From: a virus
Virus record (IMG/VR): IMGVR_UViG_3300024520_004183
Location: 1 to 38,268 of that record
Strand: one strand, 5' to 3'
DNA length: 38,268 nt
The notes beneath the pieces were generated by a model. The model was given only the letters and a program-made list of their open reading frames with translations. It was not told the origin of the DNA and made no database searches. The stretch's first letter is position 1; every line of letters begins with the position of its first letter. Position numbers and translations under genes: made by a program. Shown here piece by piece: positions 8,010 to 28,298 of the stretch.

Positions 8010-8052
8010 TGTGGAAAACGTACCTTTACCTATCAAGCGAAGCTGGTATAAT
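8010..8052 (+). promoter_or_regulatory. Promoter for the sugar cluster
   Basis: TTTACC (8025-8030) and TATAAT (8047-8052) are separated by 16 bases, and the -10 is extended (TGGTATAAT). A DnaA-box-like TGTGGAAAA (8010-8018, one mismatch) lies just upstream of the -35, echoing the elements near 3793 and 17351. The first cluster gene begins 27 bases downstream of the -10. Confidence 0.65.
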
Positions 8053-8078: not shown

Positions 8079-8852
8079 ATGGGAGCATACCTAGGAAAAA
8101 TCGCAAATGACGCAAGATTAAAAGTTTTAGATTTAATCTTCAATGCACAAACCTCCCATATCGGGAGTAATTTTAGTTGTATAGACATAATGGCTTGTAT
8201 TTTTGAGAGGGTGGATCTCGACAGGGACAAGTTTATTTTGAGCAAAGGGTGGGCTGCGGCTTCACTCTATTATTTTTTACACCGCAAGGGACGTATTACA
8301 CAGAAGCAACTGGACTCCTATTGCCAGGAAGGCAGTGAGTTCATAGGTCTTGCAGAACCTATTCATCCAGACATCCCTTTTGCGGGGGGTTCTATGGGGC
8401 TCGCCTTGCCTGCCGCTGTTGGGTTTGCGCTCGCCAAGAAGATCAAGGGTGAGCCCGGGACGATTTATGTTCTCATGTCAGAGGGAGAGATACAGTCTGG
8501 CACCACGTGGGAGGCAGCCATGATTGCTTCTCATTTCAAGCTAGACAATCTTATGGTGATCTTGGACAACAATGGACATCAAGCAATGGGAGCCACGAAG
8601 GACATTATGGACTTCAACCCGGTGTGTAATAAGTTTGTAGACTTTGGGTGGGAGACAGCACAGGCAGACGGACATAATTATATTTTGTTTGCGCGTGAGC
8701 TCCGTAACAATAAAGGGTTGCCCAAGTTTATTGACGCCAAGACGGTCAAAGGTAAGGGGGTGCCGTTTATGGAGGACGACAACATCTGGCACTACCGCGC
8801 ACCGAATGAAAACGAGTATCTATCAGCTAAAACAATCTTATGTCAGAGATAA
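8079..8852 (+). CDS. Transketolase N-terminal (TPP-binding) subunit
   Basis: This 257-residue protein corresponds to the first subunit of two-subunit transketolases. It keeps HIG (SHIGS, about 27-30), GSMGLALPAAVGFALAK (104-120), the Mg/TPP motif MSEGEIQSGTTWEAAMIA (133-150) and LDNNGHQ (162-168). Ordinary enzymes have GDGE where this has SEGE, a Glu in place of the Mg-binding Asp, so activity may differ. It would supply the diphosphate-binding half that transfers a two-carbon ketol. It overlaps the next gene by 13 bases. A role in making or branching an unusual sugar fits the cluster better than central metabolism. Confidence 0.88.
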   Translation: MGAYLGKIANDARLKVLDLIFNAQTSHIGSNFSCIDIMACIFERVDLDRDKFILSKGWAAASLYYFLHRKGRITQKQLDSYCQEGSEFIGLAEPIHPDIPFAGGSMGLALPAAVGFALAKKIKGEPGTIYVLMSEGEIQSGTTWEAAMIASHFKLDNLMVILDNNGHQAMGATKDIMDFNPVCNKFVDFGWETAQADGHNYILFARELRNNKGLPKFIDAKTVKGKGVPFMEDDNIWHYRAPNENEYLSAKTILCQR

Positions 8853-9337
8853 CCCAAGAAACAGACACACGCCGTGTGTTTATTGATACCTTGTGTGAAC
8901 TGGCACAAAAGGATGAGCGCATCGTATTTATCGTCCCAGATGTCGGTTTTAACTATGCTGAAAAGTTTCAGAAGATGTTCCCAGACCGTTATTTCAATTT
9001 CGGAGTTACAGAGCAATCAACAATCCTGGCCGCTGCGGGGATGGCTCTCTCAGGACTGAAACCTTATGTGTATACCATGCTTAACTTTAGTGTGTTTCGA
9101 CCCTTTGAGATGGTTAGAAATGGTGTGGCACTGCATAATGCAGACGTTAAGATCCTTGGTGTCAAAGGTAGCGAGAAGTATAAGTTCTTAGGGTTCTCAC
9201 ACAACATGGTTTTTGAGGATGAGGACATATACCACCTAGAGCCTTATATGAAATGTTTCAAGCCGGAGGTGGGGGACGTGAAAGAAGTAATTGTCGATAC
9301 TTATAATAGTGATAAACCTGTATATATACGCTTATGA
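8840..9337 (+). CDS. Transketolase pyrimidine-binding subunit, short
   Basis: In this 165-residue protein the transketolase Pyr domain is present: the catalytic Glu58 is in NFGVTEQSTILAAAGMALSGLKPYVYT. The usual second subunit is about 310 residues; here the C-terminal transketolase domain is absent and the frame ends after KPVYIRL, with an ordinary stop and an ATG overlap (9334-9337) into the next gene. So it is a naturally minimal subunit, not a visible frameshift. It should pair with the upstream protein to form the thiamine site at the dimer interface. Confidence 0.85.
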   Translation: MSEITQETDTRRVFIDTLCELAQKDERIVFIVPDVGFNYAEKFQKMFPDRYFNFGVTEQSTILAAAGMALSGLKPYVYTMLNFSVFRPFEMVRNGVALHNADVKILGVKGSEKYKFLGFSHNMVFEDEDIYHLEPYMKCFKPEVGDVKEVIVDTYNSDKPVYIRL

Positions 9338-10380
9338 TGGTTAAATTCGTTGATTTCCCAAAGCAATATCATAAATATCAAGCTGAACTTGACAATGCAT
9401 GGCATGGTGTAGCTGAACGGGGTGATCTTATTCTTAGAGAAGATGTCGAGGAGTTTGAGGAGAAGCTGGCTGCCTTTGTGGGAACCGGGTATGCGGTTGG
9501 TGTAAACTCCGGCACTGACGCCTTGTTTCTCTCACTAAAGATGCTGGGAATTAAAGAAGGGGATGAGGTGATAACGGTAGGTCACACTTTCCACGCCACA
9601 GTTGAGGTGATTCATCATTGTGGAGCAACTCCCGTATTGGTAAATGTTGGCAAAGATAGCATGATGGATTTGGAAGAGGTCAAGTCAAAGATTACAGAGA
9701 ACACGCGGGCCATCATTCCGGTTCATCTAATGGGAGACATGGTAGACATGAAGGCTCTTGCCGAAATGACCGACCTCCCGATTATAGAGGACGCTTGCCA
9801 AGCGCTCGGGGCTGAGATTGATGGAAAGCGGGCGGGGGCATGGGGTTTAACTGGCTGCTTCTCTTTTTACCCGGCTAAGATACTGGGTTCTTTTGGTGAT
9901 GCGGGGGCAATAACCACAGACGATAAAGAAATGGCTGACGAGCTCAAAGACCTCCGGAATCACTATAAATATAATCCGGGCAAGTTTGGTTACAATTCAC
10001 GACTAGACAATCTGCAAGCTGCATTGCTTAATGTAAAGATAGACCACCTACCAGAGATGCTTACCCGTCGCAGAGAGATATCTCAGATTTACGATCATCT
10101 ACTACAGGACGTTGATATCACCCTCCCCACACTCCGACACGGCCGTGTATATCAAGATTACATAATTCGCACCGATAGGCGCGACGAGCTGGCCGACTTC
10201 CTAGAGGATAACGGGATTCAAACAATGAAAAATGACTATCACTTCCCGGATTCTCTACCCAAGCCACAAGATACCATCGAACTAGAAAGGCAAACTCTCA
10301 GGTTGCCGTGTAATGACGTGCTAGAAGATATTGAGATTATGTATGTCGTTAAGATGGTCCGTGAGTTCTATGAAAAATAA
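9334..10380 (+). CDS. DegT/DnrJ/EryC1/StrS-family sugar aminotransferase
   Basis: This 348-residue PLP enzyme has GVNSGTDALFLSLK (56-69), the hydrophobic PLP ring stack region HTFHATVEVI, IIEDACQALGA (150-160, PLP-binding Asp153) and the Schiff-base Lys182 in SFYPAKILGSFGDAGA. The length and motifs fit nucleotide-sugar 3- or 4-aminotransferases such as WbpE. With the WbpB-like oxidoreductase and WbpD-like acetyltransferase in this genome, a WbpE-type 3-amination of a UDP-hexuronic acid is a good hypothesis. A second ATG at 9337 is an equally good start. It overlaps both neighbours. Confidence 0.9.
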   Translation: MMVKFVDFPKQYHKYQAELDNAWHGVAERGDLILREDVEEFEEKLAAFVGTGYAVGVNSGTDALFLSLKMLGIKEGDEVITVGHTFHATVEVIHHCGATPVLVNVGKDSMMDLEEVKSKITENTRAIIPVHLMGDMVDMKALAEMTDLPIIEDACQALGAEIDGKRAGAWGLTGCFSFYPAKILGSFGDAGAITTDDKEMADELKDLRNHYKYNPGKFGYNSRLDNLQAALLNVKIDHLPEMLTRRREISQIYDHLLQDVDITLPTLRHGRVYQDYIIRTDRRDELADFLEDNGIQTMKNDYHFPDSLPKPQDTIELERQTLRLPCNDVLEDIEIMYVVKMVREFYEK

Positions 10381-11185
10381 ACGCATCCTCGTTGCTGGTG
10401 GAGCTGGCTCAATAGGGTCTGAACTTGTGAGGCAGTTATCAGAACACAATAAGGTTTATGTTTTGGACACCAACGAATCGGCGTTGTTTGATCTCACGGA
10501 TTCTCTCAAGGGCCGTGATGTGTGGGGCAGGGTTGGGGACATCAAAGACTATAAGACTGTATCAGATGTATTTGAAGACTTTAAGCCACAAATAGTATTC
10601 AATGCCGCGGCATACAAACATGTGCCGCTTATGGAGTACACGCCCTTAGAGGCCATAAATACCAACGTGATAGGGCATTACAACCTAGTACACGTAGCGA
10701 AGACGTGGGAGTGCGTAGAGCGATTTGTGTATGTGTCCACCGATAAGGCGGTTAGTGCTAACTCTGTCATGGGGGCCACCAAAAGGCTGGGAGAGATCAT
10801 TGCAATCAACAATGGATTCACTGTGGTGAGGTTTGGTAACGTGATGGGAAGCAGGGGAAGCCTACTACCTATATGGCAACGACAGGTTGATGCCGGTCAA
10901 TCAATCACTGTGACAGACAAAGGGATGGACCGCTACATGATGTCAATACCAGACGCTTGCGAGTTGGTGGTTGAGGCTACCAAACACAAAGAGGTGGGCA
11001 TCTTCGTTATGGACATGGGAGAGAAGATAAACATATACGACCTCGCTCACAAAGTTGTGAAAGGAACCAAGACGAAGGTTGAGCTGACACAAATGCGCCC
11101 AGGCGAGACATTAACAGAAGAGCTTATGACCAAAGAAGAAGAGTTAAGAGCTATTAAGAGTGGTAATTTTTGGATAATAAAATGA
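10370..11185 (+). CDS. CapD/PseB/WbpM-like nucleotide-sugar dehydratase
   Basis: This 271-residue extended short-chain dehydrogenase starts at the ATG at 10370. NAD motif GGAGSIGS is at 10-17. The family-typical AAAYKHVPLMEYTPLEAINTN comes next, then YVSTDKAV (121-128), then MGATKRLGE with Met134 and Lys138. Met in place of the usual catalytic Tyr is the hallmark of the WbpM/FlaA1/PseB group. VRFGNVMGSRGS and MRPGETLTEEL follow. It is shorter than PseB (about 330). It probably dehydrates UDP-GlcNAc or a related UDP-sugar. It overlaps the DegT gene by 11 bases and the next gene by 4. Confidence 0.9.
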   Translation: MKNKRILVAGGAGSIGSELVRQLSEHNKVYVLDTNESALFDLTDSLKGRDVWGRVGDIKDYKTVSDVFEDFKPQIVFNAAAYKHVPLMEYTPLEAINTNVIGHYNLVHVAKTWECVERFVYVSTDKAVSANSVMGATKRLGEIIAINNGFTVVRFGNVMGSRGSLLPIWQRQVDAGQSITVTDKGMDRYMMSIPDACELVVEATKHKEVGIFVMDMGEKINIYDLAHKVVKGTKTKVELTQMRPGETLTEELMTKEEELRAIKSGNFWIIK

Positions 11186-11994
11186 GGAATCTAAATATAG
11201 GCCATGGTAAGAGTGGGCGTTCACTTAAATTTGCAATCATAGGTAAGGGGTTTATCTTTGATCGACACGTTCAAGCTATTGAGGGTGTGGGTGGTCAGGT
11301 TTTGTTCACTTGCGACATAGACGAAACTAAAAACCCAAATTTCACCGACTGGCTTGAGATGTTCAATGACCCAAGGTTTGACGAGGTTGATGCAGTAGTA
11401 ATTGCAGCGCCCAATTATCTACACGCGCCAATTACCCGTGAGGCACTTTTACGGGGAAAGAAAGTCTTGTGCGAGAAACCCCTAAGCATAGGAGATACAA
11501 AGGGAATGGGGGGAGTCTTTACTGTTATGCAACTCCGGCACCATCCCGAGTTATTGAAACTAAACAAGCCTAAAGAGATAACAGTTACAGCTAAGATGTT
11601 CAGAGATGAAGTCTATTGGGACTCATGGAAGGGTAATGATGTTAAGTCGGGAGGGATACTTTACAATCTTGGTGTGCACTATGTTGACCTTGCTGTGTTC
11701 CTGTTGGGTGACTCATGGGAGATCGAGACTGTGGAAAAGTCTAAGAAAAAAATAACTGCACGTGTTAGATTTGGAGAGAGTGTCGCTGACTTCCACATTG
11801 AGGTCGTTGACAGCAGGGAGGAGCAAGGTCGATCCCTTCAGGCAGACGGTAGAGAAATCGTTCTCTCAAATCAAGACAATTTGTCGTATGAGGACTTACA
11901 CACAGCAGTATATAAGGAATTTGTAGCAGGTCGCGGAGTGAGCCTTGAAGAGGCGGGCAAGAGCCTGAAACTAATAAAAGCGATATTACAATGA
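11182..11994 (+). CDS. Gfo/Idh/MocA oxidoreductase, WbpB-like
   Basis: This 270-residue protein starts from the ATG overlapping the upstream stop; an ATG at 11170 would add four residues. The Rossmann start FAIIGKGFIFDRHV (17-30), the AAPNYLHAPITREAL segment, EKPL (98-101) and the SGGILYNLGVHYVDLAVFLLG block (156-176, catalytic-region His166) are characteristic. VMQLRHHPEL resembles the WbpB/WlbA subgroup, which oxidises C3 of UDP-GlcNAc-uronic acid. It would act just before the DegT aminotransferase in a 2,3-diamino-uronic acid pathway. Subgroup assignment is inference from motifs and context; the superfamily is certain. Confidence 0.88.
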   Translation: MRNLNIGHGKSGRSLKFAIIGKGFIFDRHVQAIEGVGGQVLFTCDIDETKNPNFTDWLEMFNDPRFDEVDAVVIAAPNYLHAPITREALLRGKKVLCEKPLSIGDTKGMGGVFTVMQLRHHPELLKLNKPKEITVTAKMFRDEVYWDSWKGNDVKSGGILYNLGVHYVDLAVFLLGDSWEIETVEKSKKKITARVRFGESVADFHIEVVDSREEQGRSLQADGREIVLSNQDNLSYEDLHTAVYKEFVAGRGVSLEEAGKSLKLIKAILQ

Positions 11995-13019
11995 GATTAC
12001 AGTGCATCAAATGCGTGATGGACAAGAGTGCACCGGAGATAACCTTCGACGAGACGGGCGTTTGTAATTACTGTCACATGGCGCAGCACGAGATATCTCT
12101 GAGTAAGGAGCTGAGAAAGAATGTCCTTGGAATGATCCAAGATATTAAGCAGAAGGGTGGTAAGTATGATTGTTTGATCGGGCTGTCGGGTGGGGTCGAT
12201 AGTTCTACCACCCTAGTAAAAGCAGTTGACGCGGGACTGAAACCCCTTTGCTTCTCAGTCGATAATGGATGGCAGGACCCCAAGGCAGATGAGAACATCA
12301 TGCGCCTTGTTGAGGGTCTGAAGGTTCCATACTACAAATACAATGTAGACAAATCACGGTTTATACGTTTGCAAAGTGCTTTTATTCAGGCTGGTCAAAA
12401 AAACTTAGAGATACCAACCGACCACATACTCATGGCCAAGACGTTGGAAGTAGCAGCAGCAAACGGTATAAAGTGTATCCTCAGTGGAGGTAACGTAAAC
12501 ACAGAATCCATTATGCCCGCCTCTTGGGGATACAACGCTCGAGACCTTGTTCACATGAAAGATGTGTATCACAAGATGAGGGGTAAGCCACTTAAAGGGC
12601 TCCCCGTATGTTCATTGTTAAAATGGAACTACTACAAGTGGGTTAAGGGGATATACACTGTATATCTACTAGATTACTTTGACTATAATAGGGCTGACTC
12701 AATCAAGATGCTTGAGGAGCGCTTTGGTTACAAGGATTATGGAGAGAAGCATTGCGAGTCATCATTTACAATGTGGTTTCAGAACTACTATCTATTCGAG
12801 AAGTTTGGCATCGACAAGCGGAAGGCTCATCTTTCCTCACTGATAAACTCGGGGCAGATCACACGAGAAGAAGCGCTACATGAACTAACTAAGTCGCCAG
12901 TGTATCCCGATCTGGAAATTGATTGTGTAAAATACAAGAAGCGCCCATACACTGACTTCAAAACAGATGAAAAGTTATACCTATTTATTAGTAAAATTAT
13001 AAAAATATGGAAATCATAA
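11991..13019 (+). CDS. N-acetyl sugar amidotransferase (WbpG/PseA type)
   Basis: This 342-residue PP-loop ATPase converts an N-acetyl group on a sugar into an acetamidino group using ammonia from a partner. Two zinc knuckles (Cys5, Cys8, Cys25, Cys28) frame CVMDKSAPEITFDETGVCNYC. The PP-loop LSGGVDSS is at 65-72, followed by FSVDNGWQDPKADENI. CILSGGNVNTESIMP and the aromatic carboxyl half are family-typical. In WbpG systems the ammonia comes from a HisH-like glutaminase; here the neighbour is instead a CTP-synthase-like glutaminase. It overlaps both neighbours (4 and 13 bases). Confidence 0.92.
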   Translation: MRLQCIKCVMDKSAPEITFDETGVCNYCHMAQHEISLSKELRKNVLGMIQDIKQKGGKYDCLIGLSGGVDSSTTLVKAVDAGLKPLCFSVDNGWQDPKADENIMRLVEGLKVPYYKYNVDKSRFIRLQSAFIQAGQKNLEIPTDHILMAKTLEVAAANGIKCILSGGNVNTESIMPASWGYNARDLVHMKDVYHKMRGKPLKGLPVCSLLKWNYYKWVKGIYTVYLLDYFDYNRADSIKMLEERFGYKDYGEKHCESSFTMWFQNYYLFEKFGIDKRKAHLSSLINSGQITREEALHELTKSPVYPDLEIDCVKYKKRPYTDFKTDEKLYLFISKIIKIWKS

Positions 13020-13546
13020 ACGATTTTGATACAAGCGTTCGCAAGGCGTTTGACGAGATCGACCCTCATTGGAAAGAATACAGTGGTATTGTGGTATGTG
13101 GGACACACGAACAGCAGGACATGGAAAAGATCATTGACCGTATCCGTACTGCACGTGAGAAGAGCCTCCCTTTCCTTGGTATATGTGGCGGCTTACAGTT
13201 AGCTGTCATTGAGTACGCCAGGAACGTGTTGAACATTGAAAAAGCGACGAGCCAAGAGTTTGAACCAGCATCACCTGATGCTGTGGTTATCAAAATGCCA
13301 GAGCTGCGAGTAGGAAGTAAGATGGTTGGGACCCGTTTTGAAAGCCACTGGCACAACTACCAAGTGACGCCTCAGATACACTCAGGGCTTAAAGCAGAGT
13401 TTTTGCTGACTGTTTCAGATGGTGTGCTTGAAGAACTGAAGCACTACAGTAAGCCATTCGTAGCTGTACAGTATCATCCAGAATATCAAAGTAGTGTCGA
13501 TGCCCCACATAAGTTATTAGTAGATTTTATCAGTGTATGCAAGTAA
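13007..13546 (+). CDS. Stand-alone class I glutaminase, CTP-synthase-domain-like
   Basis: This 179-residue glutamine amidotransferase has the nucleophile Cys60 in FLGICGGLQLAVIEYARNVL and the catalytic pair His157 and Glu159 in VAVQYHPEYQS. The stretches around Cys60 (AVIEYARNVL), SQEFEPASPDAVVIKMPE, GTRFESHWHNYQV and the HPEYQS end follow the order of the glutaminase domain of CTP synthase, not HisH. No synthetase domain is attached. It probably delivers ammonia to the adjacent WbpG-like enzyme. The N-terminus is shortened. It overlaps upstream by 13 and downstream by 10 bases, so equal expression with the partner is likely. Confidence 0.85.
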   Translation: MEIINDFDTSVRKAFDEIDPHWKEYSGIVVCGTHEQQDMEKIIDRIRTAREKSLPFLGICGGLQLAVIEYARNVLNIEKATSQEFEPASPDAVVIKMPELRVGSKMVGTRFESHWHNYQVTPQIHSGLKAEFLLTVSDGVLEELKHYSKPFVAVQYHPEYQSSVDAPHKLLVDFISVCK

Positions 13547-14382
13547 ATCAATGTCGAGTAGCCCCCTCACTTGGGGCCCTAGAGGGCAGCAACTTTGATG
13601 TGTGGGGCACAAGAGAATACTATAGCGAAGATCGCCCCGCTGTATTCTTTGGTCTATATGGTCTTCCTGACTTTTATGCATTGTGGAGACACGTGGGTAC
13701 CAAGTGGATACTGTGGTGTGGTAGTGACATAACCCACTTCCAGAATGGTTACTGGCTTGAAGAGGGCGGGGGTATTAGGGTTGACTCTCAGCCCCTAGCG
13801 GAGTGGATAAATAAGAATTGTGATAATTGGGTGGAAAATGAGGTCGAACGACAAGCTCTAGCGGATATGGGTATTGATTCCAAGGTGTGCCCTAGTTTCA
13901 TGGGTAATGTTGATGATTATGGTGTAGAGTTTAAGTATAACGATCGCCCCAATGTCTACCTCTCAGCAAATGAGGGCAGAGAGGTAGAATATGGTTGGAA
14001 CTTAGTAGAGGAGATAGCCGACAAGTGTGATGTAGACTTTCACCTATATGGATCAGACACATGGACTACTAAGCATCACAATGTGTTTATTCATGGTAGG
14101 GTGACAAAGCGTGAGATGAATAATGATGTTATGCACATGCAATGTGGGCTGCGCCTTAATGAGACAATGGACGGCTTTAGTGAAATCACAGCCAAGTCTA
14201 TATTGTGGGGTCAACACCCGCTGGTGTGGGCTGCGTACAAATATCCGCATTTGAAGTCATTCAAAGACGAGGCTGAACTGGTCAAGCGACTGAATGAGCT
14301 GACGAATGAGACCCTACCTCACCCGTACCGTGACCATTACAAGCAAGCAATAAACAAATATCCATGGAACACAAAACAGTAG
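13537..14382 (+). CDS. Glycosyltransferase, GT-B type (GT4-like)
   Basis: In this 281-residue protein the C-terminal half has the GT-B donor-binding layout: a strand FHLYGSDTW, then FIHGRVTKREMNNDVMHMQCGLRLN, then GFSEITAKSILWGQHPLVW with the conserved Glu of the E-x7-E-like region. The N-terminal half contains a WILWCGSDI segment and many Trp/Tyr residues, consistent with acceptor binding. It is small for a full GT4 enzyme (usually 350 or more). Probably transfers a sugar made by this cluster to a lipid- or glycan-linked acceptor. Overlaps the neighbouring genes by 10 and 19 bases. Confidence 0.75.
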   Translation: MQVNQCRVAPSLGALEGSNFDVWGTREYYSEDRPAVFFGLYGLPDFYALWRHVGTKWILWCGSDITHFQNGYWLEEGGGIRVDSQPLAEWINKNCDNWVENEVERQALADMGIDSKVCPSFMGNVDDYGVEFKYNDRPNVYLSANEGREVEYGWNLVEEIADKCDVDFHLYGSDTWTTKHHNVFIHGRVTKREMNNDVMHMQCGLRLNETMDGFSEITAKSILWGQHPLVWAAYKYPHLKSFKDEAELVKRLNELTNETLPHPYRDHYKQAINKYPWNTKQ

Positions 14383-15269
14383 CACACTTCATGTATGTAC
14401 CTTTCACTGGCTTAGGTCTGTATGGAGGACATAGAGGAAAGCGGTGGCTCAAAAACCGCATAAAGATATTTAAGCAGTTCACTGTACCATCCTTACAGCA
14501 GCAGACGAACCAGAATTTTGTTTTGTGGGTATCATGGCGCCATGAAGACAGGTTGGACCATGACGTTATGGACTTGTGGTTTGACTTACAAGAGATGTTT
14601 CCTAATCGTATTGTGTTTACTTATTCAGGTGTATGCTTTTGGGATGACAAATACCCTAAAGAGGAGGCTCACGCGCGTTTAGTAGAGGCATTACATGGTT
14701 CAATGGGTAATTTGATCAATTGTCTTGGGGAAGCGGACACAGTGCTTATGACTATACAGCCGAGCGATGATTGCTATTATGCAACAGCGGTAGACGAGAT
14801 ACAGGCCACCCTACAGGATAACAGTTTGGAAGTGTTCGGATATAAGCACGGGTTTGTCATGGATTATATATCGGGCCGTGTAGCTGAATGGAACCCCATT
14901 ACCACGCCCCCGTTCTATACTATAAAGTTTCCCCGTGAAATCTTTGTGGACCCTATTAAGCACGTCAAACATACCGGACCTTATGAATCACATGAGTACG
15001 TTAAAGACTTCCTCAATGCATATTATTGCGACTATCGCGGTTTCATTGTTGGCACGCACGGTGAGAACATCAGCACTGTGTTTGACCACCCATTTGCTAA
15101 AGAAACGGAGGAGAAGCCTGTCGGCTTTCCCGAGTTCGCACCGCTTAAACTAAAAAGTAGCGTGCGCAAGAGCTTGATGCGCATGTTACCACACGGCTGG
15201 CAGCGGAAGCTTAGGTATTGGCTTGGTGAGTGTTTTTATTCTAGGCTTTATAGGTGGCTGAGATCATGA
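14364..15269 (+). CDS. Glycosyltransferase, rhamnosyltransferase-like family
   Basis: In this 301-residue protein the N-terminus (VPFTGLGLYG...RIKIFKQFTVPSLQQQTNQNFVLWVSW) is the signature of a family annotated as putative rhamnosyltransferase (PF11316-type), in which RxxLFxxFTxPSLxxQT precedes a GT-A-like fold. A QPSDDCYY segment supplies a DxD-like acidic pair. The C-terminal 40 residues are basic and aromatic (LPHGWQRKLRYWLG), suitable for membrane association. It overlaps the next gene by ATGA. The real sugar donor is unknown. Confidence 0.75.
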   Translation: MEHKTVAHFMYVPFTGLGLYGGHRGKRWLKNRIKIFKQFTVPSLQQQTNQNFVLWVSWRHEDRLDHDVMDLWFDLQEMFPNRIVFTYSGVCFWDDKYPKEEAHARLVEALHGSMGNLINCLGEADTVLMTIQPSDDCYYATAVDEIQATLQDNSLEVFGYKHGFVMDYISGRVAEWNPITTPPFYTIKFPREIFVDPIKHVKHTGPYESHEYVKDFLNAYYCDYRGFIVGTHGENISTVFDHPFAKETEEKPVGFPEFAPLKLKSSVRKSLMRMLPHGWQRKLRYWLGECFYSRLYRWLRS

Positions 15270-15892
15270 AGTTATTCCGAGACACAAAAGAGCACACAAA
15301 GTACTGGACAGGCAGAGAAATGGACTGGAAAAAGGACTATCTCGATACGTGGGCACACCCACATCGGTACTATATCTCACACATATTGTCCGGTTTGAAA
15401 TGGGGCTCGCTGTTAGAGATTGGCTGTGGTTCTGGCCCAAACCTCGTCAATTTAGTTAAGCATTTCCCAGGAAAGCAGGTAGGTGGTATCGACATTGTGC
15501 CGGAAGCAATAGAGCTTGCGCAGAAGACGTTCAAGGGAGCTTTTCTAAAGGTCGGGTCGGCTGAGGACTTAATGATGTCAGATAAGAGCACTGATATTAT
15601 ACTCACTGATATGTGCCTCATATATGTAAACAAGCCGGACAAGGCAATGAGAGAGATAAGGAGGGTGGCGCGCAATTATGTGATGTTCTGTGAATTACAT
15701 ACAGAATCGTGGTGGATGCGCCTAAGATTAAAGTGGGGATCGGGTTATACGGCGCATAATTATGTTAAACTGCTTCAGAAGTATGGTTTCTATGATATAA
15801 CCAAGATCAAGATACCAGAGGAGATGTGGCCGGGCGGCAACCCACAAAAAGACTACGGATATATAATAATAGCTAAAACACCTAAACGATAA
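15266..15892 (+). CDS. Class I SAM-dependent methyltransferase
   Basis: This 208-residue protein starts from the ATG overlapping the upstream stop (15266); an ATG at 15254 is also possible. Motif I is LLEIGCGSGPN, followed by the acidic end of beta-2 (GGIDIVPEAIELAQK). GSAEDLMMSDKSTDIILTD is the motif II/III region. Near the end are aromatic residues and a GYIIIAKTP strand. Last gene of the sugar cluster, so it may cap or methylate the glycan. Small-molecule or sugar substrate is inferred only from context. The next gene starts one base after its stop (TAA-T-ATG). Confidence 0.85.
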   Translation: MKLFRDTKEHTKYWTGREMDWKKDYLDTWAHPHRYYISHILSGLKWGSLLEIGCGSGPNLVNLVKHFPGKQVGGIDIVPEAIELAQKTFKGAFLKVGSAEDLMMSDKSTDIILTDMCLIYVNKPDKAMREIRRVARNYVMFCELHTESWWMRLRLKWGSGYTAHNYVKLLQKYGFYDITKIKIPEEMWPGGNPQKDYGYIIIAKTPKR

Positions 15893-15893
15893 T

Positions 15894-16355
15894 ATGGACT
15901 TAATTACAATACTATTGGCCGTCATCGCAGTAACCGAGATGACTCGGCTTGTGATGACACACAAGAACATAAGCAAGAAGGCTCATTTCAAAGAGAAACT
16001 AAAGGGAACGGGGCGCATGATCTGGGACCTCGAGTTTAAGAAATTCAAGATCCGCGAGATGCGTGAGGATGTCCGCAAGGAATACGACTTCACAAAGGCG
16101 CGCATTTCCAGCCTAGAGAACGAAATGGAGGGATTTAAGGGAGACAAAGAAGAGAAGGCCCGCATGGATGATCAAATGGTGCTTGCAAAGCGTGACCTGG
16201 AGCGTTTTGAGAGCCAATTACAGTCATTGGATCTTGAAATCAACGGTAGCAAGCCGAATAGTCAATACCCGGACGGCGTTAGTGGCTTGAACGACCAGAT
16301 TGAATCATTAAGAGCTCTGTGTGAGATGCTACAAGCATGGGCTAAAGAGGCTTAA
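15894..16355 (+). CDS. Membrane-anchored coiled-coil protein
   Basis: In this 153-residue protein, residues 1-20 (MDLITILLAVIAVTEMTRLV) form a single hydrophobic anchor; residues 55-115 are charged heptad-like coiled coil (SSLENEMEGFKGDKEEKARMDDQ...). The C-terminus is another short helix. No family recognised. It shares the TAA-T-ATG junction with the cluster but its content suggests a structural or envelope role, not an enzyme. Expression is probably still driven from the 8047 promoter. Confidence 0.6.
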   Translation: MDLITILLAVIAVTEMTRLVMTHKNISKKAHFKEKLKGTGRMIWDLEFKKFKIREMREDVRKEYDFTKARISSLENEMEGFKGDKEEKARMDDQMVLAKRDLERFESQLQSLDLEINGSKPNSQYPDGVSGLNDQIESLRALCEMLQAWAKEA

Positions 16356-16356
16356 C

Positions 16357-16518
16357 ATGGCTAGGCAGTCAAGGACCTACAAGCCCTCTGATTCCTACCC
16401 ACACAGAGAACACCGTTCAAAGAAAGGCAGACGACCATATGCAAGGAAAAAGAGGGCGCTACGTGTTATGCTTGATGAAAGATTAAACAAGATAGAAAAG
16501 CATTATGGCTCACGTTAA
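16357..16518 (+). CDS. Small basic protein (53 aa)
   Basis: Begins MARQSRTYKPSDSYPH one base after the preceding stop (TAA-C-ATG). About one third of residues are Lys, Arg or His (RSKKGRRPYARKKRALR), followed by a helical end (MLDERLNKIEKHYG). Likely nucleic-acid-binding. A longer in-frame ATG at 16321 would overlap the coiled-coil gene and is less likely. Function unknown. Confidence 0.6.
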   Translation: MARQSRTYKPSDSYPHREHRSKKGRRPYARKKRALRVMLDERLNKIEKHYGSR

Positions 16519-16558
16519 ACCTAAGAAGAAAAAGAAGAAAGCAAAACGCCCCTATTAA
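16505..16558 (+). CDS. Possible 17-residue Lys-rich microprotein
   Basis: A 17-codon frame beginning ATG GCT, with a run of six lysines after a proline, overlaps the end of the small basic gene by 14 bases. It stops inside the stem of the following terminator. Composition continues the basic theme of its neighbour. It may be a translated leader or chance frame. Confidence 0.25.
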   Translation: MAHVKPKKKKKKAKRPY

Positions 16559-16573
16559 GGGGCTTTTGCTTTA
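16541..16573. terminator. Bidirectional terminator closing the sugar-cluster transcript
   Basis: GCCCCT (16548-16553) and AGGGGC (16558-16563) form a 6-bp stem with loop ATTA; TTTTGCTTT follows on the plus strand, and the A-run before the stem gives a T-run for the opposite strand. It separates the rightward cluster from the converging leftward microprotein genes, whose last stop codon (16571-16573) touches it. Confidence 0.8.
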
Positions 16574-16660
16574 GAGGTGGTATATAAATACCATGACCAC
16601 GGCAATCCAGCACAAATTTACGAGAGCCAGAAAGAAGTATATATCTATGTTCTTGTTCAT
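16571..16660 (-). CDS. Membrane microprotein (29 aa)
   Basis: The start ATG (16660) overlaps the stop of the upstream 25-residue frame (TAATG). It encodes MNKNIDIYF followed by one hydrophobic helix (FLALVNLCWIAVVMVFIY). The paired overlap with another single-pass microprotein supports both. No homologue recalled; a holin- or exclusion-type role is conceivable but unsupported. Confidence 0.45.
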   Translation of the reverse strand: MNKNIDIYFFLALVNLCWIAVVMVFIYHL

Positions 16661-16737
16661 TAGAATATAACGAGTACGATCAATACCACTATCACGAACA
16701 TTGCCATCTGCATGTAGTCACCCATTTCATTGTCCAT
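16660..16737 (-). CDS. Membrane microprotein (25 aa)
   Basis: A 25-codon frame, MDNEMGDYMQMAMFV then a hydrophobic helix to the stop. Its start overlaps the end of the 41-residue frame by 11 bases and its stop overlaps the next start. The acidic outside and hydrophobic C-terminus resemble tail-anchored micropeptides. Confidence rests on the tight overlap chain. Confidence 0.45.
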   Translation of the reverse strand: MDNEMGDYMQMAMFVIVVLIVLVIF

Positions 16738-16852
16738 AAGTCAATATATTTAACATCTTGAGTAATGCTTCATCTCTTGAGCTACCCCTTGTGAACCGCA
16801 TTGTGCGCCTGTACAGGCAGTAATACGTACCACAGAGCTTGTATATCATCAT
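16727..16852 (-). CDS. Possible small protein (41 aa)
   Basis: Starts at ATG ATG (16852); encodes a basic, Cys/Tyr-rich beginning (MMIYKLCGTYYCLYRR) and a helical RGSSRDEALLKMLNIL end. Overlaps the 25-residue frame by 11 bases. No ribosome-binding site is clear. A competing 25-residue frame in another phase starts seven bases earlier. Real coding status uncertain. Confidence 0.35.
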   Translation of the reverse strand: MMIYKLCGTYYCLYRRTMRFTRGSSRDEALLKMLNILTYGQ

Positions 16853-16882
16853 AATACATATTGGTTATATTTCCCAGGGAAA

Positions 16883-17206
16883 CTAGCGTGAACAGCTACT
16901 ATCACTGGATACATTACCTTCATAGGTATTGATTGCCTCGATGGCACAGTTACGATCATTGACAGCTTCATTGTATAACACCTCAGCACTCACAAGCGCA
17001 GCCTCAGCTCGCTCAAGTGTCTTATTGGAATCGGCAACTGACCTAATAGCCTCAGCTAGGTTATCTGTAAGTTTCTGTGGCATATCACGCGCGTCGGTTA
17101 CTTCAATCACAGGCGAAACATACTCCACACTAGGTGTTTGATAGTTTACATACCACACACCAGCAATGGCCAATACTACTATAGTTATAATGATTATCTT
17201 TTTCAT
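16883..17206 (-). CDS. Single-pass membrane protein with coiled-coil ectodomain
   Basis: In this 107-residue protein, residues 1-20 (MKKIIIITIVVLAIAGVWYV) are a signal anchor; residues 40-95 are an Ala-rich coiled coil; the Cys residues (about 86 and 105) lie in the distal part. The topology (N-in anchor, periplasmic helix) is like an i-spanin, but the lysis genes are elsewhere and transcribed in the opposite direction. First gene of a small leftward unit between the sugar cluster and terminase; superinfection exclusion or envelope modulation is a guess. Confidence 0.65.
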   Translation of the reverse strand: MKKIIIITIVVLAIAGVWYVNYQTPSVEYVSPVIEVTDARDMPQKLTDNLAEAIRSVADSNKTLERAEAALVSAEVLYNEAVNDRNCAIEAINTYEGNVSSDSSCSR

Positions 17207-17237
17207 ATTGTTCTTAGTTAAATTAAAAGGGACTTCG

Positions 17238-17285
17238 AGAGAGCTGGCGCATAACCGAGCCTAAGCAAAGCTACCGTCGCTCTCT
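17238..17285. other. Possible structured leader upstream of leftward membrane gene
   Basis: AGAGAGC (17238-17244) pairs with GCTCTCT (17279-17285), enclosing a 34-base segment with smaller possible stems. It would lie in the 5' leader of the leftward transcript. Only one 7-bp stem is certain, so this is weak. Confidence 0.25.
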
Positions 17286-17350
17286 ACTCATTCCCTAAAC
17301 TACATACTACACCTACCATTATACAAGTCAAGTATAACTGCACGCCATGT

Positions 17351-17399
17351 TGTGGATAACTCTATAACCTTTACATACATACTATAGTTAATGTATTAT
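17351..17399 (+). promoter_or_regulatory. Promoter with DnaA-box-like site before the DUF5681-like gene
   Basis: TTTACA (17370-17375) and TATTAT (17394-17399) are 18 bases apart, 8 bases before the ATG at 17407. A perfect DnaA-box complement TGTGGATAA (17351-17359) precedes it, as at the recA and sugar-cluster promoters. On the opposite strand TGTATAAT (complement near 17316-17323) could be the -10 for the leftward gene at 17206. Confidence 0.5.
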
Positions 17400-17406
17400 C
17401 TTAATT

Positions 17407-17745
17407 ATGTCTCAAAACTTTGAAAGAGCACCGAAAAAACAGAAATACACTGGTAAGTATAAGAACGCTCAAGAGGGAATTGCAGCTCGCGTTAAGGCTT
17501 TAGAGCCATATAACTGGCCAAAAGGCGTTTCAGGTAACCCTAAAGGGCGTCCTGAAGGTACTTTAAGTGCTGTAACACGTATAAAACAGATGTTTACAGC
17601 CAATCCAGACCAGTTTGATGAGTTCTTAACGGCCTATTTGAAGGATAAAAGTAATAGAAAACACGTTATAGAGATGATAGATGGCAAGCCAAAGCAGTCT
17701 ACAGACATAGCTTTGCACGTTCCTAAGCCTTTAGACGACGTATAG
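17407..17745 (+). CDS. DUF5681-like protein, putative small-terminase partner
   Basis: In this 112-residue protein the segment WPKGVSGNPKGRPEGTLSAVTRIKQMF is the W-x-x-G-x-SGNPxGRPxG signature of the DUF5681 family, which is repeatedly found next to large terminases. N-terminus is very basic (APKKQKYTGKYKN), C-terminus acidic. By position it is the best candidate for DNA recognition in packaging, but it lacks a recognisable HTH, so it could be an accessory and not the true small subunit. It is separated from the large subunit by a 280-base gap. Confidence 0.7.
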   Translation: MSQNFERAPKKQKYTGKYKNAQEGIAARVKALEPYNWPKGVSGNPKGRPEGTLSAVTRIKQMFTANPDQFDEFLTAYLKDKSNRKHVIEMIDGKPKQSTDIALHVPKPLDDV

Positions 17746-17761
17746 CCCTTGACACGCCATT

Positions 17762-17842
17762 GGCTAACCTTAGCCGTACATTACACATTTCATAGACAAG
17801 AGACGCTATGTGTTGCATAACTATGAATGGCTATGTATAGCC
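17762..17842. repeat. Two related 14-bp palindromes before the large terminase
   Basis: GGCTAACCTTAGCC (17762-17775) and GGCTATGTATAGCC (17829-17842) are both perfect palindromes of the form GGCTAW-NN-WTAGCC, 53 bases apart. A further half-site (TATAGCCC) lies at about 17742-17749. Their place in the non-coding gap upstream of terL suggests protein-binding sites, for example for packaging-site recognition or late-gene control. Confidence 0.55.
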
Positions 17843-17911
17843 CTAAAGCATCCATGTGCCCCTAGTGGGAGTTTGAGAAAAAGAGGTGTTTCAATAACAA
17901 GAAGTGATATG

Positions 17912-17953
17912 TGGTATAATATTGAAGAGACGGGGGGGGTAAGGTCATATAAT
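17912..17953 (+). promoter_or_regulatory. Extended -10 promoter and G-run before terL
   Basis: TGGTATAAT (17912-17920) is identical to the sugar-cluster extended -10; upstream -35 is weak. An 8-base G homopolymer follows at 17932-17939, and a second TATAAT lies at 17948-17953. The remaining gap bases (17746-18025) hold no convincing gene. Confidence 0.5.
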
Positions 17954-18025
17954 GCGCCGTAGATTGATTAAGGATACCTATAAAAGCAATTAAAATTTCA
18001 AAAATACGACTTTTCCCAGAGAAAT

Positions 18026-19228
18026 ATGTTTTCCAAAACAACGGCTTACAAAAAGATTAAACTCCTCAATAAGAGAATCAGAGCAGTACAGGGGGGGACC
18101 TCTGCCTCAAAGACTATTTCAATATTATTGTATTTGATTGCTAAGGCTCAGTGTGACAAGACGCCAACCCTCACATCTGTTGTTTCAGAGTCCTTTCCCC
18201 ACCTCAAAAGGGGTGCAATGCGCGACTTCCTGATGATTCTTGAACAACACGGCTACTACAACGATAAGAACTGGAACCGAAGTGACTTTACCTATACATT
18301 TGAAACAGGCTCGAAGATTGAATTCTTCTCGGCTGATCAGCCTTCAAAGGTACGCGGACCACGACGTGACCGTTTGTTCCTGAACGAGGCCAACAACGTC
18401 CCCTACGAAGCCTTTGACCAACTCGAAGTCCGTACGAAAGATGTTATTTTTATTGACTGGAACCCTACCAACGAATTTTGGTACTACGAAGAGGTGATGA
18501 TGCCTGATGGTACTTTCCTGAGAAATGATGCAGATCACCTCGTACTCACTTATTTAGATAATGAAGCCTTAGATGGTGAGATTGTTAAATCTATTGAACA
18601 AAGGAAAGATCGTAGAGGCTGGTGGACCGTCTATGGACTTGGCCAGCTTGGAGAGGTTGAAGGTAAAATATATAAAGACTGGAAGATTATTGACGAAATT
18701 GACCACCATGCCCGAATTGAACGATATGGTCTTGATTTTGGCTATTCCAACGATCCAAGCAGCATAGTTGCGATTTATTACTATGACGGGGGGTATATTT
18801 TAGATGAAGTGCTTTATGAGAAAGGGGTCCACAATAAACGTTTAGCCGAGACTATTGAGAATCAGGAGCGACCAGCCCTTATTATTGCGGATTCAGCAGA
18901 ACCCAAGTCTATTGATGAGATAATGGGGTATGGATTAAATATTGCCGGAGCGGAAAAGGGCCGGGATTCTGTAAATAATGGTATACAGCTCGTACAAGAC
19001 CTTAGAATAAGTGTTACAAAGCGATCAACCAACATTATCAGGGAATATAGGAACTATCTTTGGAAGACCGATAAAGATGGAAAGGTCCTTAATATTCCGG
19101 AACACCAGTTTTCCCACAGTATGGATGCTATAAGGTATGCACTTACTTCTATACAGAAGAATCAGTTCAAGGAACAACCCGAGCAATCATTACCAGCCAC
19201 CCTTTATTATGAAGAACTTGGCATATGA
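18026..19228 (+). CDS. terL: Terminase large subunit
   Basis: This 400-residue packaging motor belongs to the Terminase_3/PBSX-like family. ATPase: Walker A QGGTSASKT (22-30), Walker B LFLNE (117-121) after RGPRRDR, and coupling region IDWNPTNEFW. Nuclease (RNase H fold): Asp237 in GLDFGYSNDPSS, Asp289 in IIADSAEP and Asp366 in HSMDAIRY form the metal triad. The start is preceded by CAGAGAA. It overlaps the next gene by ATGA. It translocates DNA into the prohead through the portal encoded at 19932. Confidence 0.95.
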   Translation: MFSKTTAYKKIKLLNKRIRAVQGGTSASKTISILLYLIAKAQCDKTPTLTSVVSESFPHLKRGAMRDFLMILEQHGYYNDKNWNRSDFTYTFETGSKIEFFSADQPSKVRGPRRDRLFLNEANNVPYEAFDQLEVRTKDVIFIDWNPTNEFWYYEEVMMPDGTFLRNDADHLVLTYLDNEALDGEIVKSIEQRKDRRGWWTVYGLGQLGEVEGKIYKDWKIIDEIDHHARIERYGLDFGYSNDPSSIVAIYYYDGGYILDEVLYEKGVHNKRLAETIENQERPALIIADSAEPKSIDEIMGYGLNIAGAEKGRDSVNNGIQLVQDLRISVTKRSTNIIREYRNYLWKTDKDGKVLNIPEHQFSHSMDAIRYALTSIQKNQFKEQPEQSLPATLYYEELGI

Positions 19229-19452
19229 AGATTGAACTTAATATTGCGAACACTGAAAACGTGCAGAGTCTCTCAAATGAAGACATCGAACAGATAGATG
19301 AGATAATGAATGCACTCATTACAACAGGGGCATTAACTGGTGTCAAAAACGGTCAAACTGTGATACACTTTGATCATACGGGTACATTCCAACGAGTAGA
19401 ACTTCGCTATTTCCCCTGGCAACGTAGGAGAAAATCCAATGAAAGTAGGTAA
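19225..19452 (+). CDS. Small hypothetical protein after terL (75 aa)
   Basis: Acidic helical N-terminus (NVQSLSNEDIEQIDEIMNALI), then a beta hairpin (GQTVIHFDHTGTFQRVELRYF) and basic end. Coupled to terL by ATGA overlap and to the acetyltransferase by a 14-base overlap. Similar small proteins are found after terminases in phages, without known role. Confidence 0.7.
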   Translation: MKIELNIANTENVQSLSNEDIEQIDEIMNALITTGALTGVKNGQTVIHFDHTGTFQRVELRYFPWQRRRKSNESR

Positions 19453-19852
19453 ACGAGTAAAAATCTGGCACATTGGCCTCTCCAATATAGGGGAGTGTTT
19501 CATAGGAAACGATTGCGTCATCCATTCTCACGTTTGGATCGGTGATAAGGTCAAGATCGGCGACCGGTGTAAAATCCAGGCATTTTCGTTCCTCCCAACC
19601 GGGGTACGTCTGGGAAATGACGTATTCGTTGGCCCGCACGTCTCATTTACCAACGACCGACATCCCCCTTCCGGGGAGTGGTTGCCCACGATAGTTGGCG
19701 ATAATGTGTCGATTGGTGCAGGGGCTGTGATCCTTCCTGGTGTTTCCCTGGGAAACGGGGCCCGTGTAGGAGCTGGCGCAGTTGTAGCAAGAGACGTTGA
19801 GCCTGGCCAGCTTGTAGTTGGACCACGCGCAGAACCGCTTGACGTTACTTAA
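19439..19852 (+). CDS. WbpD-like left-handed beta-helix acetyltransferase
   Basis: This 137-residue protein is built of hexapeptide repeats ([LIV]-G-x4): IGNDCVIHSHVWIGDKVKIGDRCKIQ, LGNDVFVGPHVSFTNDRHPP, VSIGAGAVILPGVSLGNGARVGAGAVVA. The FVGPxVxFTND segment and IWH...KIQ are typical of WbpD, which N-acetylates the 3-amino group of UDP-GlcNAc(3N)A. It lacks about 50 residues compared with cellular WbpD. It lies between terL and portal, not in the sugar cluster, yet supplies the one missing step between WbpE-like and WbpG-like enzymes. The 3' end of the gene contains the -35 of the portal promoter. Confidence 0.88.
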   Translation: MKVGKRVKIWHIGLSNIGECFIGNDCVIHSHVWIGDKVKIGDRCKIQAFSFLPTGVRLGNDVFVGPHVSFTNDRHPPSGEWLPTIVGDNVSIGAGAVILPGVSLGNGARVGAGAVVARDVEPGQLVVGPRAEPLDVT

Positions 19853-22996: not shown

Positions 22997-23019
22997 ATAT
23001 ATTATAATAAATTATTAAC

Positions 23020-26975: not shown

Positions 26976-28298
26976 ATGGCTACATTAAGTAATTTTGGAG
27001 AACAATTTGCAAGTAAGGTCCTTGAAAAGACCTACCAGAACGCAGTTGTTGACGCTATCGCTAACCGTGATTACGAAGGTGAGATCAAAAAGCCAGGAGA
27101 TCGTGTAAACATTCTCTCTTTCCTCAATAGCATCCTTCTTAGTGACTACTCAGTTGGTTCAGACATGAGTTCTGAAACAATTGTAGACGCTGAGGATCAG
27201 CTTATTGTTGAAAAACGAAAATACTACAACTTCTCGCTTGATCGCCTCGAGGATCTATTCACCTACGGTGGAGACATCCCTGAGAACCTTCTTACGGACG
27301 CATCGAAAGTTCTCGAAAAAGAAATCGACACCTACGTTCTCGACAAATTCGGATCAGAAGCTAAGGCAGGTAACTGGATTGGTATCGACCTCGTGGTTGA
27401 TGGTTCAGGTCAGACAATGGCCTCAATCACCACAACCGCAACAGGTGGTACAGTCAACCTTTCAACCAACGTGGTAAACGGTGGTGGAATGGCAACAGTT
27501 GAAAACCCTCGCGATGGCGCAAGCTACTCAAGTGGATTCGACAGCTCGGACCTCTTCAAGGGATTCCGACTTCGATCAACCGCAGCATTTGTTTCACCTT
27601 GGTATCGTATCTCGGGTGTCACAGACACAAACACTGCAACTCTTACCGAATGGGATGAGGCAGTAGGCGGTTCAGACTTTGAAGAAGGTATGACACTCCG
27701 TGGTTTGTTTGGTGGAGATGGCATTAGCTTCCCCAAGGGAGGTGACGGCAACGCTTCACTTCTTACCATGTCAAGTCTTGGTTGGGAGATTCAGGCAGCA
27801 GCAGCAACTTCGGTTACCGCAGCGTCTATCTACGACCAGACAACCCTCCTCGCTGAGGCACTTGACGAAGATGAAGTATCAGCAGAAGACCGTAAAGTTA
27901 CGGTTCCTCCAGCAGGTATCACTATGCTTCGTCAGGCATCAGAGCTTCAACCAACCGGCATCGCTGAAATCTTCGGCGGCACCGTACTCAATGGACGAGT
28001 CATGCGATTTGGTGGATTCGATGTCCATAGCGCAGCAGGTTCACGTGTTTCAACACGATCAGGTCACCCTACATCTTCAGGTGTTGGTTCAGACCTTACT
28101 ACAACCACAGGTGCGACAGGTTACATCATTCCAGCAAACCACATGGGATGCATCACTTATGCAGATAAGTGGAGCGAGTCTCGAGTAGTTGATGCTGAGA
28201 ACCAGTTTGCAAAGAAGTACCAAGGTCTCTTCCTCTTCGGAGCGAAGGTACCTCGTTACCGACGTAAATTTGCAGCAGTTCTCTTCGGAAGTTTCTAA
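26976..28298 (+). CDS. Major capsid protein
   Basis: This 440-residue coat protein begins MATLSNFGEQFASKVLEKTYQNAVVDAIANRDYEGEIKKPGDRVNIL, as in many podovirus coats of the P22 gp5-like class. It has an extended E-loop/insertion region (about 140-240, Thr/Gly-rich) and a conserved-looking C-terminus KKYQGLFLFGAKVPRYRRKFAAVLFGSF. Codon choice is narrower (many CTT, TCA, GCA) than in neighbours, which fits high expression. A 10-bp inverted repeat follows the stop. Confidence 0.9.
   Translation: MATLSNFGEQFASKVLEKTYQNAVVDAIANRDYEGEIKKPGDRVNILSFLNSILLSDYSVGSDMSSETIVDAEDQLIVEKRKYYNFSLDRLEDLFTYGGDIPENLLTDASKVLEKEIDTYVLDKFGSEAKAGNWIGIDLVVDGSGQTMASITTTATGGTVNLSTNVVNGGGMATVENPRDGASYSSGFDSSDLFKGFRLRSTAAFVSPWYRISGVTDTNTATLTEWDEAVGGSDFEEGMTLRGLFGGDGISFPKGGDGNASLLTMSSLGWEIQAAAATSVTAASIYDQTTLLAEALDEDEVSAEDRKVTVPPAGITMLRQASELQPTGIAEIFGGTVLNGRVMRFGGFDVHSAAGSRVSTRSGHPTSSGVGSDLTTTTGATGYIIPANHMGCITYADKWSESRVVDAENQFAKKYQGLFLFGAKVPRYRRKFAAVLFGSF

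Follow-up and report, generated by a model that had tools for sequence, protein, structure and literature searches.

Several systems are known in which rare amino sugars are made for surface glycans, and some of them are encoded by viruses. The Wbp route proceeds through WbpA, WbpB, WbpE, WbpD and WbpI, and its characterised WbpB members act on UDP-GlcNAcA (PMC10622841); in Bacteroidota, a Wbp/Vim pathway makes the linking sugar of the type IX system (PMC7468200). Phage-borne clusters of lipopolysaccharide (LPS) genes have been described (PMC3037559), O-antigen genes were reported from phage metagenomes (PMC11295528), and Megavirinae encode pathways for their fibril glycans (PMC10117803). Virus-borne glycan synthesis itself is already known; the larger finding presented here is that a phage lineage has conserved such an operon in modular form. 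It was studied in the IMG/VR record IMGVR_UViG_3300024520_004183, a linear stretch of 38,268 bases analysed as a whole (hereafter, the window), in which 11 genes of one strand, from position 8079 to 16355, encode a predicted route to an unusual amino sugar together with enzymes for its transfer.

The locus most closely resembles the Wbp system of Pseudomonas aeruginosa, which provides the O-antigen sugars ManNAc3NAcA and ManNAc3NAmA, in that a WbpB-type oxidoreductase, a 3-aminotransferase, a 3-N-acetyltransferase, an amidotransferase and a dehydratase of the WbpM family occur together. Unlike that system, it is phage-encoded, has no WbpA, WbpI or HisH/HisF, carries a glutaminase of the CTP-synthase type instead, includes a split two-domain transketolase, and in about half of the relatives has a short-chain dehydrogenase/reductase (SDR) in place of WbpB. 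With the Bacteroidota pathway, which serves A-LPS of Porphyromonas and type IX cargo, it would share a di-N-acyl sugar chemistry of the WbpB/E/D kind and possibly the phylum of the host; that pathway, however, has WbpA and an AsnB-type amidation at C6 (PMC7468200), whereas the amidotransferase of the phage is of the WbuX type and further genes are present. Clusters of nucleotide-sugar and glycosyltransferase genes are also borne by the cyanophages P-SSM2 and S-SSM7, but the largest of these occur in T4-like phages above 230 kb and are not core (PMC3037559), while the operon takes up a fifth of a genome of about 38 kb and is core to its lineage. Megavirinae likewise encode routes with a 4,6-dehydratase, an aminotransferase and an acetyltransferase, and their rare amino sugars vary by clade; these are, however, giant viruses of amoebae making 4-amino sugars with a demonstrated virion target (PMC10117803), whereas the phage system appears to be of the 3-amino type, with either the host envelope or the virion as its likely target. 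Finally, the N and C subunits of split transketolases are encoded side by side in miharamycin and amipurimycin biosynthesis, where their role is proposed (PMC12247030), and in Bacteroidota central metabolism; the phage pair differs in lacking the C-terminal domain and in lying inside a glycan operon. No report of this gene set in a phage was found in the literature. Among named phages, neither the operon DNA nor the amidotransferase nor the head protein had a match, and the transketolase matches were distant (26-38% identity).

Distribution of the operon in the phage lineage

Relatives were sought among viral contigs with alignments of the amidotransferase and of the glycosyltransferase encoded at 14364. 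About 20 distinct IMG/VR contigs (designated by L numbers) carry the operon 5' of the terminase genes, its order largely kept at about 40-70% protein identity. The shared order runs from the two transketolase subunits (TKN, TKC) through the DegT aminotransferase and dehydratase, oxidoreductase, amidotransferase, glutaminase, two glycosyltransferases, methyltransferase and a small protein of the 15894 type to the small and large terminase, often an acetyltransferase, and the portal. Occurrence of the set in so many other contigs argues that it is not a chance assembly, and the conservation of order at such divergence points to purifying selection rather than to recently captured cargo. Since these searches were guided by the sugar genes, contigs were also sampled by the major head protein alone (26976..28298, + strand; phrog_267, 1.8e-17). 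Among these, every one of the 8 contigs that measure at least 34 kb and whose head protein is at least 53% identical has both the amidotransferase and the 14364 glycosyltransferase; sampled contigs with neither gene are no longer than 28.5 kb and probably end before the region. Thus, as judged from these genomes, the operon is core to the phage lineage. The common backbone extends beyond it, as in L002, where the portal is 50% and the head protein 53% identical.

The genes mostly overlap end to start and their open reading frames (ORFs) are intact, as are all those named in the original prediction, which had also correctly put the cluster at about a fifth of the window. That prediction had listed the acetyltransferase with the other enzymes; its gene exists but is separate from the operon, being placed after the terminase and before the portal, and the operon also holds a class-I glutaminase gene, at 13007, which had gone unmentioned. 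A stuffer role or accidental origin was once raised for the LPS genes of large cyanophages (PMC3037559), and one might ask whether the present cluster is similarly accidental host DNA or functionless filling. We regard this as close to negligible, given its core status, largely conserved order, conserved active sites, genes strongly diverged yet intact, the fifth of a 38 kb genome devoted to it, and a GC content (0.451) equal to that of the replication genes (0.451).

Some relatives depart from the common layout. In L065 (106-5106), the amidotransferase, DegT, dehydratase, TKC, TKN and acetyltransferase genes are inverted relative to the glycosyltransferase, terminase and portal genes. Small ORFs, HNH-like or other, are inserted between sugar genes in L042 (4777-5337), L044 (5776-6336 and 8396-9022), L002 (6973-7386) and L045 (7034-8044), the last as an in-frame fusion to the transketolase Pyr subunit; they might be homing endonucleases that aid module swapping. 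The more distant viral contigs L071, L072, L074 and L076 have relatives of both glycosyltransferases without the full sugar-synthesis set.

Enzymes of the predicted amino-sugar route

The oxidoreductase gene (11182..11994, +; true start 11182) encodes a Gfo/Idh/MocA protein (2e-14) that falls into the WbpB group of 3-dehydrogenases. Compared as a single sequence with all solved structures, it matched WbpB of Thermus at 98 bits and of Pseudomonas at 77, the next match being at 43; a profile of nine phage sequences raised the two WbpB scores to 170 and 167 bits, against 75 for the next best. Residues K99, R141 and H166 (numbering of alignment A8) pair with K101, R160 and H185 of Thermus WbpB (3o9z), and the catalytic lysine and histidine, together with the arginine of the presumed substrate site, are conserved in all nine phage proteins of this type. 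A single-sequence WbpB scan of the viral contigs gave no match, which reflects limited sensitivity, since the alignment-based route recovered WbpB in 8 other phages.

The neighbouring aminotransferase (9334..10380, +; PF01041, 1.3e-85) is a DegT-family protein with the FYPAK motif of the pyridoxal-phosphate lysine. When a profile of five sequences was compared with the PDB, the 3-aminotransferases 7b0d, 7n63, QdtB, DesV and WbpE came out on top (335-247 bits), above the 4-aminotransferases perosamine synthase (173), ArnB (155), PseC (114) and PglE (104). The acetyltransferase (19439..19852, +; Hexapep) belongs by its profile to the sugar 3-N-acetyltransferases of the WbpD/WlbB kind, as 7s43, a WxcM-like protein, WlbB and QdtC scored 153-130 bits and everything else 75 or less; this top group also includes Fuc3N and Qui3N enzymes. 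The subgroup names WbpB and WbpD given in the original prediction were therefore upheld by profiles, as was the placement of the DegT protein among 3-aminotransferases, but WbpE was not singled out, QdtB, DesV and 7n63 scoring at least as high. We know of no defined natural substrate for 7b0d, the best match. A candidate tried and rejected was the aminoshikimate (3-amino-5-hydroxybenzoate, AHBA) route, which combines a split transketolase, a DegT protein and a Gfo oxidoreductase: AHBA synthase reached 123 bits with the DegT profile, against 250-335 for the 3-aminotransferases, and the WbuX-type protein, dehydratase and glycosyltransferases do not fit such a route.

The gene at 11991..13019 (+), which had been called WbpG-like, encodes an N-acetyl sugar amidotransferase of the WbuX/WbpG/PseA family scoring 215.5 bits, above the curated TIGR03573 cut-off of 203.2; its SGGVDSS PP-loop and CxxC motifs are identical in the window and in L002. 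It is followed by a stand-alone class-I glutaminase (13007..13546, +; GATase, 2e-21), whose best PDB matches are all CTP synthases (71 bits); GMP synthase subunits follow, and not HisH. The Cys-His-Glu triad is conserved in all 14 phages having this glutaminase, and HisH/HisF partner genes were not found for the phage amidotransferase, the CTP-synthase-type protein standing in their place in these 14 phages. Adjacency of the genes suggests that the glutaminase is the likely ammonia donor of the amidotransferase. Amidotransferase homologues (E <= 1e-40, 32-43% identity) were present in 34 of 395 Bacteroidota genomes; of 24 loci inspected, 20 have HisH and/or HisF adjoining the homologue, and none has a glutaminase of CTP-synthase type within about 1.5 kb. 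The phage pairing is thus a variant of the HisH/HisF pairing.

Profiles also agree with the WbpM-like dehydratase, split transketolase, glycosyltransferases and methyltransferase proposed originally, one glycosyltransferase (13537) being recognised through its structure model. The dehydratase (10370..11185, +; true start the ATG at 10370, not 10331) is a short soluble SDR of the UDP-GlcNAc 4,6-dehydratase type (PglF/CapE/WbpM family; Polysacc_synt_2, 5.5e-82; WlaL/PglF, 156 bits) with methionine for the catalytic tyrosine. It has the NAD motif, and its S-x-DK...M...K active site is conserved in 15 phages; the enzyme may be inverting or retaining. The PP and Pyr domains of transketolase are both present, on separate adjoining genes. 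The N-terminal PP subunit, TKN (8079..8852, +; Transketolase_N, 5.9e-26), has its best PDB match (157 bits) in 6yak, a split-transketolase N-terminal component, and its metal-site motif reads SEGE in the window and SDG(E/Q) in three other aligned phages, rather than GDG. The Pyr subunit, TKC (8840..9337, +; Transket_pyr, 9.4e-21), has 165 residues (163-172 across three phages), without the C-terminal third domain, and its EQ motif with the catalytic glutamate is conserved where covered.

At least one and probably two glycosyltransferases are encoded. The first (13537..14382, +) has no Pfam match, but its AlphaFold model (pLDDT 93) resembles GT-B enzymes in Foldseek (E 5e-8; best matches SenB, BshA and TarM). 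The second (14364..15269, +) is a probable GT-A enzyme of the Rhamno_transf-like type (PF11316, a weak 8e-6) with an invariant PSDD motif and a basic amphipathic C-terminal helix, conserved in 30 viral loci; its model (pLDDT 60) was too low in confidence for a fold search. They are followed by a methyltransferase dependent on S-adenosylmethionine (15254..15892, +; Methyltransf_11, 4.5e-16), weakly similar to the pseudaminic-acid-associated methylase TIGR03587. The last gene (15894..16355, +) encodes a small protein without a family match, which seems to have a membrane segment at its N-terminus and contains a coiled coil; throughout the clade it keeps its place beside the operon, lying directly 3' of the glycosyltransferase and methyltransferase genes in most contigs.

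Predicted product and its acceptor

The step at which relatives differ is the oxidoreductase. WbpB is found in the window and in L043, L045, L049/L051, L053, L058, L067, L071 and L073. L042 (7781-8698), L002 (8736-9677), L048 (2589-3455) and 8 other contigs (L005, L055, L062, L063, L065, L069, L070 and L075) carry instead a GalE/RmlD-like SDR, always of a single family (505-538 bits). No contig has both, and L060 has neither in its available part. This exclusion gives a Fisher p of 7e-5, or 0.005 with complete modules only, both rough values because related contigs do not count as independent observations. Mapped onto the portal tree, the label switches about five times, at least three switches being forced by well-supported branches, and labels are no more clustered than shuffled ones. 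The gene for the acetyltransferase directly adjoins or overlaps that for the SDR in L042, L002, L062, L063, L055 and L069, and that for WbpB in L058 and L071. Its position in many contigs beside whichever oxidoreductase is present suggests that the oxidoreductase works with the aminotransferase and acetyltransferase step. The two versions may do the same job or may yield two different sugars; for the SDR, possible roles include 4-reduction, epimerisation and 3-dehydrogenation.

From the enzyme set, the best description of the predicted product is a UDP-HexNAc derivative that is 3-acetamido and probably acetamidino. We tentatively prefer, at just below an even chance, the view that the core operon both makes and transfers such a sugar and that the acceptor is a glycan of the host envelope. 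Synthesis would start from host UDP-GlcNAc, or from UDP-GlcNAcA if the host has a 6-dehydrogenase. Oxidation at C3 by the WbpB-type enzyme, amination at C3 by the DegT protein and 3-N-acetylation by the WbpD-type enzyme would give a UDP-2-acetamido-3-acetamido sugar, in which the amidotransferase, with ammonia from the glutaminase, could convert one acetamido to an acetamidino group. The 4,6-dehydratase would provide a second sugar derived from a 6-deoxy-4-keto intermediate, and the glycosyltransferases and methyltransferase would add and cap the sugars. The acceptor, the least certain step, might be a precursor of LPS or capsule that faces the cytoplasm, and infected cells or debris with such a modified envelope would no longer bind the phage. 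Exchange of WbpB for the SDR between relatives would change the sugar and keep the rest of the route.

A number of results weigh against this view. In a six-frame search with PF03721, neither the window nor any of 17 relatives gave a match above the cut-off for a UDP-sugar 6-dehydrogenase (WbpA), although 13 of 14 control genomes matched, and the WbpI 2-epimerase (PF02350) was found in none of 20 phage contigs, with matches in 11 of the 14 controls. About half of the clade lacks WbpB yet retains the aminotransferase and acetyltransferase, so that WbpB is in this sense dispensable. The transketolase pair has no place in the Wbp route. Pairing of amidotransferase and glutaminase is not universal, the latter being absent from L049/L051, L060 and L065. 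Family scans of the window ORFs recognised neither a flippase nor a polymerase, and an integrase (PF00589) is absent from the window and present in one of 18 contigs. With 17 of 18 contigs free of an integrase, classical lysogenic, lasting conversion of the host is unlikely; nor was there a match to GtrA or GtrB among the scanned ORFs, leaving the marks of Gtr-type serotype conversion absent.

The uronic sugar originally proposed is in consequence unsupported, considering the lack of WbpA and WbpI, the loss of WbpB in about half of the clade and the universal 4,6-dehydratase; we give a uronic product roughly an even chance or less. The statement that only WbpA is missing was also inexact, as the WbpI 2-epimerase and HisH/HisF are absent too. 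A 6-dehydrogenase of the host could supply the WbpA step, and a route lacking WbpI would leave the product with the gluco configuration. The 4,6-dehydratase is present in every contig covering the region, and its 6-deoxy product is not a uronate; therefore, either two sugars are made or the uronic interpretation is wrong. In P. aeruginosa, WbpM serves FucNAc alongside the uronic sugar.

The other solution would be a single 6-deoxy, non-uronic route, which is compatible with either target and which we consider a substantial, if somewhat doubtful, possibility. The dehydratase would form a UDP-4-keto-6-deoxy-HexNAc, the WbpB-like protein or SDR would adjust it, the DegT protein and acetyltransferase would add the 3-acetamido group, and the split transketolase would attach a two-carbon branch to a keto sugar. 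It would account for a dehydratase more constant than WbpB and for the missing 6-dehydrogenase, and hydroxyacetyl transfer to keto sugars, which would branch them, has been proposed for split-gene transketolases but not proven (PMC12247030). Transketolases are, however, not known to branch nucleotide sugars, the identity with the WbpB group, whose characterised members use UDP-GlcNAcA (PMC10622841), is strong, and many bacteria, as the 13 of 14 control genomes indicate, have a 6-dehydrogenase family protein able to supply the uronate.

With regard to the target, we lean towards the envelope, at nearly an even chance, over the virion, which is a lesser though real possibility; sequence by itself decides neither the target nor whether rival phages would be blocked, as originally suggested. 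In the virion case, the same sugar would be attached, in the cytoplasm, to capsid or tail proteins of the phage itself. The operon lies directly 5' of the terminase and structural genes, with the acetyltransferase gene between terminase and portal, and the system is core to the lineage; lasting host conversion would be of little gain to non-integrating phages, and no initiating transferase, like no flippase or polymerase, was recognised by family scans of the window. Precedents are virus-made rare amino sugars on fibrils (PMC10117803) and virion glycans of Mycobacterium phages (cited in PMC12619734). On the other side, the operon forms a unit of its own, a terminator-like stem precedes the terminase genes, and the basic amphipathic C-terminus of the 14364 protein resembles membrane-associated glycosyltransferases. 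A further element is found in L044, where a fragment-sized gene just 5' of the operon (5281-5763) resembles polyprenyl-phosphate sugar transferases (TIGR03025, 132 bits), which are initiating enzymes; it speaks against the virion and fits lipid-linked synthesis of an envelope glycan.

Phage glycosyltransferases can also modify DNA (cited in PMC12619734), and the operon could in principle feed sugar hypermodification of the phage genome. This is very improbable, as family scans of the window recognised no base-modifying gene of the thymidylate-synthase-like or hydroxymethylase kind and the 14364 family is by Pfam unlike DNA glucosyltransferases. We know of no precedent for amidotransferase and 3-acetamido chemistry in DNA hypermodification.

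Genomic context and meaning of the operon

The window has a GC content of 0.46 and no tRNA genes, and the contig is possibly incomplete. RecA (3794), a DnaB-type helicase (5498) and RusA (7565) precede the operon; after it come a probable small terminase (17407), the large terminase that served as a lineage marker (18026..19228, +; PF04466/PF17288; 32 related viral contigs), the acetyltransferase, the portal (19932), the head protein and tail-region genes. The virus belongs to an uncultivated lineage of tailed phages with an SU10-like portal and adaptor and with RecA, DnaB and RusA. A promoter-like site just 5' of the operon (8025..8052, +; extended -10 match, 10/12) is weak evidence, the count of such sites in the window being no better than chance. 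The terminator-like stem 3' of it (16548..16563, both strands) is one of 17 such sites, against 9 in shuffles. Adjoining RusA, positions 6820-7200 encode an N-terminal domain of dATP/dGTP diphosphohydrolase (PF18909, 3e-9), which may bear on the nucleotide pool or unusual DNA bases. At 124-819 (- strand), a DUF7666 domain precedes an Ala/Ser/Arg repeat region matching an Imm5-like immunity protein (PF21805); PADLOC gave no defence-system match. Two neighbouring putative virion proteins (21677-24720) have in common a repeated motif of the PEIxxPxxxVxV type, found also in relatives. A second small protein, encoded at 16883-17206 (-), likewise seems to have a membrane segment at its N-terminus, and both have a charged coiled-coil region; it and the 15894-16355 protein could be spanin-like lysis proteins or be associated with the glycosyltransferases.

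A Bacteroidota host is a lead only. It rests on two weak hints, namely that Shine-Dalgarno motifs are missing in 35 of 40 window genes and that the terminase is nearest to those of Flavobacterium phages (47%). Searches without a positive control found no head-protein homologue at 1e-15 in 395 Bacteroidota or 398 Pseudomonadota genomes.

Sugar genes of phages tend to be regarded as stray auxiliary genes; in this lineage, an entire amino-sugar route belongs to the core genome, with variation at a single enzymatic step. The operon therefore allows a test of whether phages make glycans of their own, and of the surface for which these are made. It also offers compact enzymes for rare-sugar chemistry, namely an amidotransferase with a CTP-synthase-type glutaminase and a two-domain transketolase. 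In the most far-reaching combination, which we judge unlikely, the operon would be a self-contained, lineage-defining viral glycosylation system, its product an amidino and possibly two-carbon-branched amino sugar unknown from cells, whose synthesis relies on a transketolase pared down to two domains and on a glutaminase of the CTP-synthase type, and exchange of the WbpB and SDR cassettes would amount to viral serotype switching. If the sugar is indeed placed on the virion, self-made glycans of the kind known from giant viruses would extend to small phages.

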